A stretch of DNA of 33,857 nucleotides from Sphingopyxis sp. (GTDB lineage: Bacteria > Pseudomonadota > Alphaproteobacteria > Sphingomonadales > Sphingomonadaceae): positions 1 through 33,857 of the forward strand of contig NZ_JAIBES010000081.1 in the NCBI RefSeq assembly GCF_019459305.1. The letters run 5' to 3'. The translations under genes were made by a program, and so were the position numbers. How positions within the stretch are numbered: the stretch's first letter is position 1; each line of letters begins with the position of its first letter. The notes under the pieces were generated by a model. That model did no database searches and was not told the origin of the DNA. It saw only the letters and a list, made by a program, of their open reading frames with translations. This document shows, one piece after another, positions 20,422 through 25,168 of the stretch.

Positions 20422-21051
20422 TCAGCGGCTTGCCGCCTCACGCCGCGCGGTGATGATCTCGACGCTGTCCATGATCGCATCGACCGCTTCGCTAGCAGGC
20501 GGCGCGTCGGCGCGCTTTTGGGAGAACTGCCCGCTGTTCATAATCTCTTCGAGCGCGGCGCGGGCGCGCGAAACGCGACTTTTCATCGTGCCGAGCGCGC
20601 AATCGCAGATACTCGCGGCCTCCTCATAGGACATGCCGCCGGCACCGACGAGAATTAGCGCCTCGCGCTGGTCCTGCGGCAATTCCATCAGCCCGCGTTG
20701 CAGATCGGCCATTTCGCCGCTGTCTTCTTGATTGGCGGGGGTCGACATCGTGCGTTCGACCGCGGTTTCGTCATATTCGCCGACGAACTTATTGCGGCGC
20801 ATCTGCGACAAGAAGGTGTTGCGCAGGATGACAAAGGTCCACGCCTTGATCGATGTGCCGCGTTCGAACCGATCGCGCGACGCCCACGCCTTGACCATCG
20901 TGTCCTGCGTCAAATCGTCGGCGAGATCGGGGCTTCCCGACAGACTGCGGCCATAAGCGCGCAAATGCGGGATGACCGCGGCGAGCAATGCCTTGAATTC
21001 GGTATCGGACAGGCTGTCGCCGTTTTGCGACGCCGGAGCGGCCCCCGACAT
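20422..21051 (-). CDS. ecfG: EcfG-type general stress response sigma factor
   Basis: A 209-residue extracytoplasmic-function sigma factor of the alphaproteobacterial EcfG class (ECF15), which directs RNA polymerase to GGAAC-N16/17-CGTT promoters. Region 2 spans about residues 20-95 (HLRAYGRSL, DLTQDTMVKAW, AWTFVILRNTFLSQMRRNK), and region 4 about 120-175 (ALILVGAGGMSYEEAASICDCALGTMKSRVSRAR). The short C-terminal tail is typical. Its ATG overlaps the nepR stop by one base (TAATG), so sigma and anti-sigma are coupled. It is presumably held inactive by NepR until phosphorylated PhyR removes NepR. Confidence 0.95.
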   Translation of the reverse strand: MSGAAPASQNGDSLSDTEFKALLAAVIPHLRAYGRSLSGSPDLADDLTQDTMVKAWASRDRFERGTSIKAWTFVILRNTFLSQMRRNKFVGEYDETAVERTMSTPANQEDSGEMADLQRGLMELPQDQREALILVGAGGMSYEEAASICDCALGTMKSRVSRARAALEEIMNSGQFSQKRADAPPASEAVDAIMDSVEIITARREAASR

Positions 21052-21305
21052 TATTGCTTCGAGCTTTTCTGATCGAGTTGCGACAAGAGGTCGAGCATAT
21101 GATCGGGCAATTGTTCTGAAACGATGTTGCCATAGATCATGCGCAGCTTAGCGCTGACGGGTTCGGGCGCCTGACGACCCGTCAGCGTGCGATGCCATTC
21201 GTCGCTGTCGGTGCCGGGAAAGCTGCCTTGCTTGCGATTTGGCGCATCAGCCCCCGGGGGCGGGGTGCCCGTGCCGTTCGACCTGTTGTTGCCTTGCGTA
21301 GCCAT
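21051..21305 (-). CDS. nepR: NepR-type anti-sigma factor
   Basis: An 84-residue protein whose C-terminal half (KLRMIYGNIVSEQLPDHMLDLL) carries the conserved amphipathic helices by which NepR grips EcfG or PhyR. The N-terminal 45 residues are low-complexity and probably disordered, as is usual for the family. The start at 21305 is the first ATG after the EcfG-type promoter; a longer open frame upstream would include the promoter itself. It is encoded directly before ecfG with one base of overlap, the arrangement found across Alphaproteobacteria. Confidence 0.92.
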   Translation of the reverse strand: MATQGNNRSNGTGTPPPGADAPNRKQGSFPGTDSDEWHRTLTGRQAPEPVSAKLRMIYGNIVSEQLPDHMLDLLSQLDQKSSKQ

Positions 21306-21313
21306 GTCGGAGC

Positions 21314-21338
21314 AACGACGAAAAGCGCCGCTGGTTCC
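21314..21338 (-). promoter_or_regulatory. EcfG-dependent promoter of nepR-ecfG
   Basis: On the minus strand GGAAC (21338-21334) is followed by a 16-base spacer and CGTT (21317-21314), an exact match to the established EcfG consensus. It lies 9 bases before the nepR ATG and implies autoregulation of the operon. A start of transcription just before or at the ATG would make the nepR leader very short. Confidence 0.85.
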
Positions 21339-21477
21339 CGACGGTTGCTTTTTTTGCGACGAAACCGTTGCCAAGATGCCACAGCGGCCCTATTCGAGGT
21401 GCCGCGTAGGCGACCAGGCTTGCGGCGAGGGGTTATACTTTGCCTTTGCTGCATGGCGGAAGGCTGGAGAACGTCGC

Positions 21478-21897
21478 TTGCTTTCCGTCATCTATATAAG
21501 CGTTGCCGATCCGTTGATCGGCGAACAGGATATTGCCGCCCTTCTGGTTCAGGCGCGTCGCAACAATCAACGTGACGCGCTCACCGGCGCGCTGATTTTC
21601 AACGGTCATAATTTTCTGCAACTGCTTGAAGGTCCAGCGGACAAGGTCGGTGCCTGTCTGGCGGTGATCCGCAGCGATCCGCGGCATAGCGGGATGGTGG
21701 AACTTCGCCGCCGCGAAATCGCGGAACGCGCCTTCGCCGAATGGACAATGCTCTATGATCCGCAGTTCCGCGGCCATGACGACGCCTTGTCGCGTTTGGC
21801 GGGCAGCGGACGTCTGGACCCGCAGGATGCTTTGATGATGGAGAATTTCATCGCGCTGGGACGCCGCACGCGTCCTTCTGGAGCGACCGGCAATTGA
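21478..21897 (+). CDS. Stand-alone BLUF domain blue-light sensor
   Basis: A 139-residue protein consisting of a BLUF (FAD-binding blue-light) domain and a short helical tail. All photocycle residues are present with the same spacing as in AppA: Tyr6, Asn30, Gln48 (in FLQLLEGP), Trp89 and Met91 (in EWTMLY). It should therefore bind flavin and respond to blue light. The start is taken as the TTG at 21478, because GGAG lies 8-9 bases upstream and BLUF domains start this close to their first strand. A frame open to an ATG at 21304 would overlap the divergent nepR start and promoter. No output domain is present, so it must act through a partner. It lies inside the general stress response locus. 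Confidence 0.85.
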   Translation: MLSVIYISVADPLIGEQDIAALLVQARRNNQRDALTGALIFNGHNFLQLLEGPADKVGACLAVIRSDPRHSGMVELRRREIAERAFAEWTMLYDPQFRGHDDALSRLAGSGRLDPQDALMMENFIALGRRTRPSGATGN

Positions 21898-22084
21898 CGG
21901 CTGCCCGCCGCTTTTTCGGCCGGTGCCGCGGTTCCGGTTTGCATCGGCCGCACGACCCGCTAAGCCTGATCTGCCAATTGATCGTTGTCCCTAAAAACAA
22001 GGCTATAGTATCAACGATATAACGCCCCAAGCGCCCGGCGCTGAACCGCTCGACGATGCCAGCTTTAAACAGGAGTTGGCGGCG

Positions 22085-22639
22085 ATGCTGCCGCATCTGC
22101 GCGCTTTTGGCCGCAGCCTCTGCGGCAACGCCGACCTGGCCGACGATCTCGTTCAGGAAACGATGCTCAAGGCGTGGAAGGCGCGCGCGCAATATGTGCC
22201 GGGTCCGGCCAGCATGAAAAGCTGGGCGTTCGTTATCCTGCGTAATTGTTTCCTGTCGCAGATGCGGCGCAAGAAATTCACCGCCGAATATGACGAACTC
22301 GCAGCCGAACGGCTGCTCGTCGCCCCCGATGACCAGGATGATAGCCTGCATCTGGCCGACGTCCAGCGCGCCTTGTTGATGCTGCCCGTCGACCAGCGCG
22401 AGGCGCTGGTGCTGATCGGGGCGGGACAACTGTCCTATGAGGAAGGCGCCGCGATCTGCGACTGCGCGGTGGGGACAATGAAAAGCCGCGTGTCGCGCGC
22501 GCGCGCAGCGTTGCAGACGATCCTCGAGAGCGGTACCATGCCGCGGCGCAGTAGCGACGAACTCGCGTCGAGCGAAGTGTTCCGCTCGATCATGGACGAC
22601 GTCGATTATCTGACCGCAAACGGGCCTGGCCGCGAATAA
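22085..22639 (+). CDS. Second EcfG-like sigma factor, N-terminus uncertain
   Basis: A paralogue of the EcfG sigma factor encoded 1.1 kb away: HLRAFGRSLCG, DLVQETMLKAW, AFVILRNCFLSQMRRKKF and ALVLIGAGQLSYEEGAAICDCAVGTMKSRVSRAR match it almost block for block. From the ATG at 22085 (184 residues, AGGAG nine bases upstream) the first part of helix 1 is missing. The in-frame codons before it (LDDASFKQEL) still resemble the paralogue (LSDTEFKALL) back to about 22040, yet contain no ATG or GTG, and the only TTG (22076) abuts AGGAG. Translation may begin at a rare codon (ATC at 22010 has AAGG seven bases upstream), or the gene was truncated. In Caulobacter a second paralogue (SigU) exists beside SigT. 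Confidence 0.85.
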   Translation: MLPHLRAFGRSLCGNADLADDLVQETMLKAWKARAQYVPGPASMKSWAFVILRNCFLSQMRRKKFTAEYDELAAERLLVAPDDQDDSLHLADVQRALLMLPVDQREALVLIGAGQLSYEEGAAICDCAVGTMKSRVSRARAALQTILESGTMPRRSSDELASSEVFRSIMDDVDYLTANGPGRE

Positions 22640-22645
22640 GCCCGG

Positions 22646-23440
22646 TTACGCCGCCAGCTGGGGCGTAAACAGCAGGCTCTGGCTGATCGCTGCGCGCACC
22701 GTATTCTCGCGGAACGGTTTCGAGATCAGGAAGGTCGGCTCGACCCTCCCGCCGGTCAGCAGCCGTTCGGGAAAGGCGGTGATGAAGATCGCGGGTACCG
22801 GCGCGATCGCCAAAATATCCTGTACCGCGTCGATCCCCGACGACCCATCGGCGAGCTGAATATCGGCCAGCACCAGCCCGGCATCGGTTGATTCGAAGGC
22901 GGCGACCGCGTCGGCGTGCGTGGTGGCGACGCCAGCGACGGTGTGGCCAAGGTTGCGGACGATCTGTTCGAGTTCCATCGCGATCAACGGCTCGTCTTCG
23001 ATAATCAGCACCGAGGTACAAGACTCGCGGTCGAGGTCCGCGACCGCTTCGCCGAGCAAAGTTTCGACCGTCTCGTCATCGGTTCCGGTGATGATCGAAG
23101 CTTCGCCGACCGAAAAGCCTTCGAGCGCGGTCAGCAGCAATATCTGACGGCCCAAGGGTGTGATCTGCGCCAGCCTTTTGTTTGCAGCACGCACGAAGGG
23201 ATCTTCGCCGTCGTCGCTGCCTTCGCCGTCATCGATGTAGGCGCTTTCCCAGATGCGGTGGAAATTGCGATACAGGTCGATGCGGGTGCCGTTGCCCGCG
23301 CTGAATTCGTCAGGGGCGGCCACGATGACTTCCAGTGTCGTATGCACAAAATTGTCGCCATGCTGCTGGCTGCCGGTCAGCGCGCGCGCGTAACGGCGCA
23401 AATACGGTAAATGTCCGCGAAGCTCTTCACCCAATGGCAT
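22646..23440 (-). CDS. phyR: General stress response regulator PhyR
   Basis: A 264-residue anti-anti-sigma factor: an EcfG-like domain (residues 1-135, with sigma 2-like RGHLPYLRRYARALTGS and sigma 4-like LLLTALEGFSVGEASIITG) fused to a receiver domain (142-260). The phosphoacceptor is Asp193 (LADIQLADG), with acidic Glu148/Asp149, Thr221 (FITAF) and Lys241 (SKPF). Phosphorylation opens the protein so that it sequesters NepR and frees EcfG. The ATG at 23440 follows an excellent GGGAGGT site. It converges on the second sigma gene with 6 bases between them, and diverges from a histidine kinase gene. Confidence 0.96.
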   Translation of the reverse strand: MPLGEELRGHLPYLRRYARALTGSQQHGDNFVHTTLEVIVAAPDEFSAGNGTRIDLYRNFHRIWESAYIDDGEGSDDGEDPFVRAANKRLAQITPLGRQILLLTALEGFSVGEASIITGTDDETVETLLGEAVADLDRESCTSVLIIEDEPLIAMELEQIVRNLGHTVAGVATTHADAVAAFESTDAGLVLADIQLADGSSGIDAVQDILAIAPVPAIFITAFPERLLTGGRVEPTFLISKPFRENTVRAAISQSLLFTPQLAA

Positions 23441-23466
23441 TTATTACCTCCCGCTTTGAACCGTCA

Positions 23467-23492
23467 TACGCGTCCGCGCGCGCGACGGTTCC
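23467..23492 (-). promoter_or_regulatory. Probable EcfG-dependent promoter of phyR
   Basis: On the minus strand GGAAC (23492-23488) is followed by a 17-base spacer and CGTA (23470-23467). The -35 is exact and the -10 differs from CGTT in one base. It is 26 bases from the phyR start codon. Confidence 0.6.
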
Positions 23493-23647
23493 GCAAAATT
23501 GAATCAAAAATGCGCGACGAAGCGCTGCAACTTGTCATCGTGCGATGCGTAGAGTCAGCCGGGACGCCTTCGCGCTATCGGTAAGTCAGTGGAATTACGC
23601 CGCTTTCCTGATCCGATGGCAAACAGACTTTTTTAGGGACCATATTC

Positions 23648-25168
23648 ATGGCAGAGCGGCCCGCAGGATCCGGAGGACGTGAGGGGCATCAGTTGGCGGA
23701 CGGAGGTTATGCAGGTCCGGAACAGGCCGAACGCCTGCGCCTCGATACGCTTCGCGAATACCGGATACTCGACACCGGCCCGGAGGAAGCGTTCGACCGC
23801 GTCACCAAGATGGTCGCCGACCTTTATGACGCGCCGATCGCGCTGGTCTCGCTGGTCGATGATTGCCGCCAGTGGTTCAAATCCTCTTACGGCCTCGACG
23901 TCTCTGAAACGCCGCGCGACATCAGTTTTTGCCAATATGTGATCGCCGAAGACAAGCCGGTGGTCATTGTCGATGTGCTGGGTGACGAGCGCTTTCGCGA
24001 TAATCCGCTGGTGACCGGCGATCCGTTCATTCGTTTCTACGCCGGCGTACCGCTGCGCGCCTATAACGGAACCATATTGGGCACCCTGTGCGTGATCGAT
24101 CGCAAGGAGCGGCCGGTGCTGGTCGAGCGCGAACTGGAACGGCTCGAGGATTTCGCCGCGATCATCATGGCCGAGGCCGACCTGCGGCGCATCGTCGCCG
24201 AACGCGACGAGGCGCGGCAGACGCTGGAGCGCGCGCTCGACTTTTCGGGCATCGCGACCTGGCGCTATGACGCGCGAACCGGATCGATCAATTGGGGCGG
24301 TGCGGCTGCCGAGCTTTGGGGAGCGGACTTTGCTACCGCGCTGGCCGATATCGACGGCTTTTATGAGCGACTGCTTCCCGACGACCGCGACATGGTGCGC
24401 AGTGTGCTTGGTGGATCGGTCGAGAGCGGCACCCATTATGCAACCGAATATCGCATCCAGCATCCCGAACGCGGGGTGCGCTGGATCGCGGTCCGCGCCG
24501 ACTGGGACGTTAACACGACCGACGCGATCCTGACCGGGATCAGCATCGACATCACCGAACAGAAAAGCCGCCAGGAAAATGCCAATCTGTTGATGCGCGA
24601 ATTGCACCACCGGATGCGCAATTTGTTCGCGACGGTCAGTGCGATCATTTCGCTGACGCGCCACGCGGCGACCGATGTCGACGATTATGTCGAGCGGATC
24701 ACCGGTCGGCTCGATGCGCTTAATCGCGCGCAGAATGTCCTGCTTGGCGCGAACTTCATGACCGGGTCGATGCACGCGCTGCTGCGCGAGGTCGAGGCGG
24801 CCTTTCCGCGCATCCGCTGGTCTGGGCCGGACCTGCTGCTGCCCGAAAACGCGCTGGTCGCGATGGCGCTGGTGTTCAACGAACTGGCGACCAACGCGGT
24901 CAAGCATGGCGCACTGTCGGGCGCGAGTGGCGACGTCGATATCCAATGGACCCAGGATCCGGAAGGCAGCGATCCGCGGCTGTTCCGGCTGACCTGGACC
25001 GAAACCGGCAATGACGGCCCGATCGGGCCGCCCGAGAAGACCAGCTTCGGCACCCTGTTGATGGAACGCAGCGTCCGCAACAATCTGGGCGGTACGATCG
25101 AGCGGCGGTGGGAACCGACCGGGTTGTTCCTCGACATCACCTTGCCCGCGCGGTGGCGCGACGCCTGA
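23648..25168 (+). CDS. GAF-PAS sensor histidine kinase, HWE family
   Basis: A 506-residue soluble kinase, the probable phosphodonor for PhyR. Domains in order: GAF (about 40-185, LREYRILDTGPEEAFDRV opening), PAS (about 195-305, ending in GISIDITEQ), the dimerisation/phosphotransfer helix with ELHHRMRN (probable phospho-His321), and the ATPase domain with the N-box NELATNAVKHG (411-421). WTE at 450-452 together with HRMRN identifies the HWE class, the class that feeds PhyR in many alphaproteobacteria. No membrane segment is present, so it senses a cytoplasmic signal. AGGGA precedes the ATG. I see no EcfG-type promoter before it. Confidence 0.9.
   Translation: MAERPAGSGGREGHQLADGGYAGPEQAERLRLDTLREYRILDTGPEEAFDRVTKMVADLYDAPIALVSLVDDCRQWFKSSYGLDVSETPRDISFCQYVIAEDKPVVIVDVLGDERFRDNPLVTGDPFIRFYAGVPLRAYNGTILGTLCVIDRKERPVLVERELERLEDFAAIIMAEADLRRIVAERDEARQTLERALDFSGIATWRYDARTGSINWGGAAAELWGADFATALADIDGFYERLLPDDRDMVRSVLGGSVESGTHYATEYRIQHPERGVRWIAVRADWDVNTTDAILTGISIDITEQKSRQENANLLMRELHHRMRNLFATVSAIISLTRHAATDVDDYVERITGRLDALNRAQNVLLGANFMTGSMHALLREVEAAFPRIRWSGPDLLLPENALVAMALVFNELATNAVKHGALSGASGDVDIQWTQDPEGSDPRLFRLTWTETGNDGPIGPPEKTSFGTLLMERSVRNNLGGTIERRWEPTGLFLDITLPARWRDA

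Follow-up and report, generated by a model that had tools for sequence, protein, structure and literature searches.

A stand-alone BLUF gene in the general stress response locus of Sphingopyxis: a candidate blue-light input

Why does a gene for a blue-light photoreceptor domain stand in the middle of a bacterial stress response locus? We asked this question for a stretch of 33,857 nucleotides from Sphingopyxis sp. (contig NZ_JAIBES010000081.1, hereafter the window), in which six genes of the general stress response (GSR) locus are clustered between positions 20,422 and 25,168: ecfG1 and nepR on the reverse strand, a stand-alone BLUF gene and a second sigma factor gene, ecfG2, on the forward strand, phyR on the reverse strand and a GAF-PAS-HWE kinase gene on the forward strand. 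The first-pass annotation had named this cluster and had described it as free of unrelated genes. Pfam and NCBIfam matches bear this out, and we saw no intervening extra gene between ecfG1 and the kinase gene in the window. The linkage between BLUF and the GSR is real, conserved and, as far as we have searched, apparently undescribed. In our reading the BLUF protein would give blue light an accessory entry to the GSR of Sphingopyxis, acting in the manner of PixD or BlsA and modulating the partner switch, and we put the probability of this reading at slightly above one half.

Conservation of the BLUF gene at the locus

The genus sample comprised 80 genomes. An EcfG match at an E-value of 1e-60 was obtained in 76 of them, and the regions of these 76, the window included, were examined. 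A BLUF gene is present in 49 of the 80 genomes, and in 46 of these 49 it sits at the stress locus. The genes ecfG1, nepR and ecfG2 stand in register in 73 loci (again counting the window), 45 with BLUF and 28 without. In a further genome (G052) the contig end cuts the locus, with BLUF, nepR, ecfG1 and part of ecfG2 present, and in two genomes (G012 and G074) the arrangement is absent. Counted over the 74 locus-bearing genomes, BLUF lies between nepR and ecfG2 in 46, one of these copies (G049) being broken. The gap between nepR and ecfG2 measures 634 to 769 bases with BLUF, where the lower value belongs to the broken copy, and 199 to 392 bases without it, with one exception of 403 bases (L209, in which nepR matches partly). 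BLUF was also at the locus in 28 of the 29 other best-scoring genus loci inspected first and in all 29 of the loci L032 to L060, which are labelled as Sphingopyxis or only by order, family or class. The remaining 81 loci of that set, some on short contigs, yielded one (L064) with BLUF adjoining GSR genes. The arrangement shared by 46 of the 74 locus-bearing genomes is far beyond chance.

As a family-wide control we used 160 of the 193 BLUF-bearing family genomes outside Sphingopyxis and compared their tables by eye, a procedure that would miss genes on separate contigs. PhyR was found in 145 of the 160 genomes. PhyR and BLUF lie within 10 kb of each other only in G167 and in none of the 144 other genomes having both; in G084 they are about 19 kb apart. 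As an aside, Erythrobacter and its relatives (L066, L067, L070, L090, L093, L094 and others) carry two tandem BLUF genes about 100 to 160 bases apart.

G167 and the uncultured Sphingomonadaceae bacterium of L064 share the gene order mscS-BLUF-nepR-ecfG-phyR-kinase (the name mscS was assigned by eye), which is unlike the order in Sphingopyxis. In the genus of G167, below called the second genus, a BLUF match was obtained in 28 of 32 genomes, and in 16 of the 32 BLUF lies directly upstream of nepR-ecfG. An mscS-like gene with at least 34% identity to that of G167 precedes it in 15 of these 16 loci. PhyR was detected at an E-value of 1e-15 in 17 of the 32 genomes. All 16 genomes with a nepR-linked BLUF are among these 17, the remaining one being the fragmented G476, and BLUF is upstream of nepR-ecfG in none of the 15 PhyR-free genomes. 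The PhyR-free genomes (e.g. G230, G318 and G352) deserve mention in their own right: they include near-complete assemblies without a PhyR match at this threshold, and about half of the genus seems to have lost the stress switch that is usual in Alphaproteobacteria. Conservation of the BLUF position in relatives was the check that had been proposed together with the idea of a light input. The position is kept in Sphingopyxis, and the linkage of BLUF to nepR recurs in the second genus, with nepR-ecfG as the BLUF neighbour common to both.

We then considered the history of the gene within Sphingopyxis. Mapped onto a tree built from the adjacent genes, BLUF presence requires 12 changes, at least 9 of which are forced by well-supported branches. 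The BLUF tree has 26 of 41 splits in common with the locus tree, compared to 0.3 with shuffled names, and one supported conflict. As the BLUF tree mostly tracks the locus tree and the insertion place is identical, one old gain followed by repeated loss is the simplest reading and fits better than repeated gain; exchange of the whole locus is possible. A scan of the 28 BLUF-free gaps for remnants of the gene gave four matches above the shuffled maximum, two of which correspond to the 3' end of BLUF, a stretch that in some species overlaps with the promoter of ecfG2. Several remnants had first been judged by eye, and after the comparison with shuffled gaps L166 and L149 are the only BLUF-free loci that we accept as holding clear ones.

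The BLUF protein and the genes around it

The BLUF gene (21,478 to 21,897, forward strand) begins with TTG and encodes 139 residues. The product matches the BLUF domain PF04940 with 94.8 bits against a curated cut-off of 25 (Pfam E-value 3.3e-27) and consists of this domain and two C-terminal helices, in agreement with the earlier description of a BLUF protein without an output domain. The TTG start recurs in 40 of 44 intact loci and in all 29 of the first set (window included). The AlphaFold2 model displays the BLUF fold and the two C-terminal helices with a mean predicted local distance difference test score of 82.5, which is weak around residues 91 to 110 and at the end, and a search of the PDB with this model returned PixD and AppA as the first matches. 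The photo-residues are Y6, N30, Q48, W89 and M91. Excerpts of the respective papers give Tyr8, Asn32, Gln50 and Met93 for PixD (PMC5899715) and Y7, Q51 and W92 as essential for BlsA (PMC6695109); equating these with Y6, N30, Q48, M91 and W89 is our own placing. Y6, N30, Q48 and M91 are kept in all 44 intact Sphingopyxis BLUF proteins read, and W89 in 36 of them. The protein is predicted to bind flavin adenine dinucleotide (FAD) and to respond to light. The broken copy (L193, genome G049, apparently on the same contig as L060) has an open frame of no more than 41 codons, counted from the start codon.

We also considered a C-terminal motif, F-x-[AS]-[LFI]-G, as a GSR-specific signature of the BLUF partner. 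It occurs in 22 of 22 Sphingopyxis proteins, 16 of 16 from the second genus and 2 of 95 other BLUF proteins. Because a like ending (NFASLN or NFAVLN) stands at the same place in three of six other BLUF proteins inspected and the 95 comparison proteins are dominated by two groups, we did not count the motif as a partner signature.

On the other side of the intergenic region lie nepR and ecfG1 in operon order. The anti-sigma factor gene nepR (21,051 to 21,305, reverse strand) starts with ATG at 21,305; its product matches Pfam NepR at 2.8e-08 and the NCBIfam NepR model at 4.2e-05, which is below the cut-off of that model. The start codon of ecfG1 (20,422 to 21,051, reverse strand; Pfam Sigma70_r2 and r4_2) overlaps the nepR stop. 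This EcfG-type sigma factor is 84 to 99% identical in 28 of the 29 other Sphingopyxis BLUF loci checked, and its position matches that of SGRAN_1161, the ecfG1 of Sphingopyxis granuli TFA, in the available text on that strain (PMC7083833).

Downstream of BLUF, ecfG2 encodes the second EcfG-type sigma factor (22,010 to 22,639, forward strand, start uncertain; Pfam sigma regions 2 and 4 at 3.5e-16 for the frame 22,061 to 22,636). Its conserved 5' end is without ATG, GTG or TTG, and the candidate starts are ATC at 22,010, TTG at 22,076 and ATG at 22,088. The apparent ATC start (22,010 to 22,012) is found at the same place in related loci such as L150 and L169. In 45 of 72 loci no ATG, GTG or TTG occurs within eight codons upstream of the conserved coding start PLDD; in 44 of the 45 an in-frame ATC precedes PLDD by 5 or 10 codons. 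Other species show ATG or GTG at or adjacent to the ATC position. An AUC start in a stress sigma factor would be rare and unusual. As a separate observation, five loci (L160, L177, L180, L186 and L198) have an extra 1.2 to 1.8 kb or so between ecfG2 and phyR.

The gene phyR (22,646 to 23,440, reverse strand) encodes the anti-anti-sigma response regulator, with Pfam matches to PhyR_sigma2 (1.9e-23) and Response_reg and an NCBIfam match to 'PhyR family response regulator anti-anti-sigma factor' at 2.1e-102 (342 bits, cut-off 240). It is followed by the gene for the GAF-PAS-HWE histidine kinase (23,648 to 25,168, forward strand; Pfam GAF 1.2e-18, PAS_3 2.9e-10, HWE_HK 1.2e-14). We assign the locus to the EcfG/NepR/PhyR module because it unites a nepR-ecfG operon, phyR, an HWE kinase and a GGAAC-N16-CGTT promoter; partner switching among these proteins has been demonstrated by others in relatives, according to the excerpts at hand.

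Pfam recognises GAF and PAS_3 in the locus kinase and no LOV domain with a photo-cysteine, and its match to the NCBIfam LOV kinase model covers the kinase part only (residues 300 to 500). The light-sensor check in the window's assembly covered the HWE kinases, with six HWE-domain matches. The one most like Brucella LOV-HK (L250, 1162 to 2265, on contig 119 of G000) reads N-F-I-S where Brucella has N-C-R-F, the Cys of which we take to be the photo-cysteine. As the locus kinase shows no recognised LOV domain and the LOV-like HWE kinase no photo-cysteine, neither of them offers an evident route for blue light. The same assembly holds a second nepR divergent from a second phyR (L249, contig 108 of G000; phyR named by eye), a pair resembling nepR1/phyR1 as described in the excerpts on TFA (PMC7083833).

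Promoters, a proposed mechanism and competing explanations

The nepR-ecfG1 operon is preceded by an EcfG-type promoter, GGAAC-N16-CGTT, at 21,314 to 21,338 on the reverse strand. A motif scan found GGAAC-N15-18-CGTT toward nepR in all 73 genus loci, at a distance that agrees to within one base in 72 of them, and the same nepR promoter is described for TFA in the excerpts available (PMC7083833). Toward BLUF the motif is found in 0 of 45 Sphingopyxis loci. The relaxed form G[GC]AAC-N16/17-[CT]GTT, for which the chance rate is 0.3% per region, occurs toward nepR in 45 of 45 loci, between BLUF and ecfG2 in 0 of 45, and toward BLUF in 0 of 45 Sphingopyxis and 0 of 16 second-genus loci. Of these 16 second-genus loci, 13 have a GSR-type motif between BLUF and nepR. 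A candidate BLUF promoter of sigma70-like form, TTGCCA-N17-TATTCG, was read by eye at 21,368 to 21,396 on the forward strand; the corresponding pattern, devised post hoc, is present in 28 of the 44 loci that have an intact BLUF and in 6 of the 27 that lack BLUF. Between BLUF and ecfG2 lies a conserved promoter-like block (TTGCAT ... GCTAAGCC; 21,938 to 21,966, forward strand), and its pattern TTG[CA]A-N8-26-[GC]TAAG, likewise devised post hoc, occurs in 32 of the 44 BLUF-bearing and 9 of the 28 BLUF-free loci at a chance rate of 0.4% per region. According to the text seen on TFA, ecfG2 is without an EcfG promoter and EcfG2 hierarchically controls ecfG1 (PMC7083833). We therefore reject BLUF as an EcfG output, there being no EcfG-type promoter toward it, though a weak or unusual one may exist; BLUF looks like an input or a side branch. 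It would stand next to those pathway genes that do not induce themselves, and this is where one would look for an input.

The conserved position suggests that light might be fed directly into the stress switch. We propose the following mechanism. BLUF would be made from its own, EcfG-independent promoter and bind FAD, and its C-terminal helices would change in the light as in PixD and BlsA. One of the light states would then contact a member of the partner switch, either NepR together with a sigma factor or EcfG2 or PhyR, and this contact would shift the amount of free EcfG and the balance among NepR, EcfG1/EcfG2 and PhyR. The contact, its direction and the partner are all presumptive. PixE, the partner of PixD, is response-regulator-like according to the excerpts (PMC5899715), and the receiver domain of PhyR is therefore a reasonable candidate. 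A more specific version is one we hold tentatively and doubt somewhat more: the stand-alone BLUF protein would be a direct light-gated partner of NepR, EcfG or PhyR and form a second, kinase-independent blue-light route that became established early in Sphingopyxis and in one or more further sphingomonad genera and was given up where unneeded.

The median ratio of amino-acid-changing to silent substitution rates (dN/dS) is 0.28 for BLUF, 0.23 for nepR, 0.15 for ecfG1, 0.16 for ecfG2 and 0.13 for phyR; BLUF is under purifying selection that is weaker than on ecfG1, ecfG2 and phyR. Among close pairs of genomes, those that carry BLUF show a higher ratio of amino-acid to silent change than those that lack it in ecfG2 (Fisher p 0.004) and in phyR (0.0002), whereas ecfG1, nepR and the kinase show no such difference. 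These rates point weakly to ecfG2 and phyR as possible partners. We set aside naming the partner from them, as the pairs come from different clades, and keep them as a hint only.

Several results weigh against the proposed light input. BLUF is absent from 28 of the 74 genus loci that retain ecfG1, nepR and ecfG2, and is therefore an optional module and not part of the core switch; TFA, the strain in which the pathway was studied, seems to lack it by the gene numbering in the excerpts seen (PMC7083833). We found no clearly relaxed constraint in the GSR proteins of BLUF-free pairs. In the second genus a single event that removed the entire locus could account for most of the co-presence of BLUF and PhyR, and a quick tree of 133 proteins does not show the BLUF genes of the two genera as sisters, so that their common ancestry is unsupported. 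Finally, the photoactive Tyr is Phe in 3 of the 16 second-genus BLUF proteins with the gene still in place (L218, L219 and L220, from G167, G481 and G473; Tyr in the other 13). The dispensability and the Tyr-to-Phe change in these three relatives count against a simple story. Each Phe genome has an additional BLUF gene at another site, and the two of these that were read (L246 and L247) encode Tyr. The light function may therefore have moved, and a split of roles after duplication is possible.

How do other explanations account for the same observations? The output of BLUF could be unrelated to stress, for example motility or biofilm formation, and the gene retained since its sequence is intertwined with the nepR and ecfG2 promoters in the intergenic region, which would make its loss or movement costly. 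The ecfG2 promoter-like block indeed extends into the BLUF 3' end in some species, and the repeated loss of BLUF (on the simplest reading) left the constraint on its neighbours without clear relaxation. However, both the locus and the nepR promoter persist in the 28 genomes without BLUF, which means that the intertwining does not hold the gene in place; moreover the second genus ties BLUF to nepR-ecfG in a different arrangement, and the 0 of 144 in the family control also speaks against this explanation, which we consider unlikely. Alternatively BLUF might feed the pathway by a signal other than light, such as temperature or the redox or flavin state. The three proteins with Phe kept at the locus would suit such a signal, as would BlsA, which integrates light and temperature according to the excerpt available (PMC5955987). 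The Tyr is retained in all 44 intact Sphingopyxis and 13 of 16 second-genus proteins, however, and the additional BLUF of the Phe genomes argues in the same direction, which leaves this explanation improbable. That the gene acts in cis, with read-through of transcription or translation tuning the downstream sigma gene (ecfG2, or nepR-ecfG in the other genus) and the protein mattering less, would fit its place immediately ahead of a GSR sigma unit, in the same orientation, in both genera but is quite improbable given the promoter-like motifs that the downstream units own after BLUF (13 of 16 and 32 of 44 loci) and the purifying selection on the protein.

If the blue-light input is correct, light would bypass the kinases and act on the sigma factor switch directly. 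Orphan short BLUF proteins would then gain a class of partners, and the switch could serve as a small light-gated tool for sigma factor control. The natural mix of BLUF-bearing and BLUF-free Sphingopyxis is a ready comparison set, and the methods established in TFA include gene deletion, lacZ fusions and EcfG1 and EcfG2 transcription in vitro (PMC7083833).

Comparison with known systems

The first-pass annotation knew of no described BLUF input to this pathway, and the open-access literature agrees: among the matches listed we found no description of BLUF with PhyR, NepR or EcfG or as a GSR input, subscription papers and preprints lying outside this scope. Within these open-access papers BLUF and Sphingopyxis occurred together in one, on a soil metagenome.

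Apart from PixE, the known BLUF partners are transcription regulators. Action through a separate partner is described for AppA-PpsR, BluF-BluR and PixD-PixE in the excerpts seen (PMC5899715), and BlsA-Fur is a further case. PixD and BlsA resemble the BLUF protein of the window in their short C-terminal helices and the same photo-residues. The proposed system would differ from these four pairs in its partner; among the open-access matches listed, neither EcfG nor NepR nor PhyR is described as a BLUF partner.

The closest known locus is the GSR locus of S. granuli TFA (ecfG1-nepR2/ecfG2/phyR2/HWE kinase), which in the excerpts has the same gene order and orientation as the window (PMC7083833). 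The two are also alike in GGAAC-N16-CGTT before nepR and an ecfG2 without an EcfG promoter, whereas in TFA nepR2 (1162) and ecfG2 (1163) have consecutive gene numbers and thus no BLUF between them (PMC7083833).

Brucella LOV-HK and Rubellimicrobium RT-HK are blue-light flavoproteins tied to PhyR-NepR-EcfG, according to the excerpts at hand. In both the light domain is inside the kinase, whereas the window has a stand-alone BLUF protein and a kinase without a recognised LOV domain. LovK of Caulobacter is likewise a LOV-HWE kinase input to PhyR. Blue light also enters a general stress sigma pathway through YtvA (LOV-STAS) of Bacillus subtilis in the part of the source seen, though there the sensor is LOV and not BLUF and the target is the sigma-B stressosome and not EcfG (PMC4844311).

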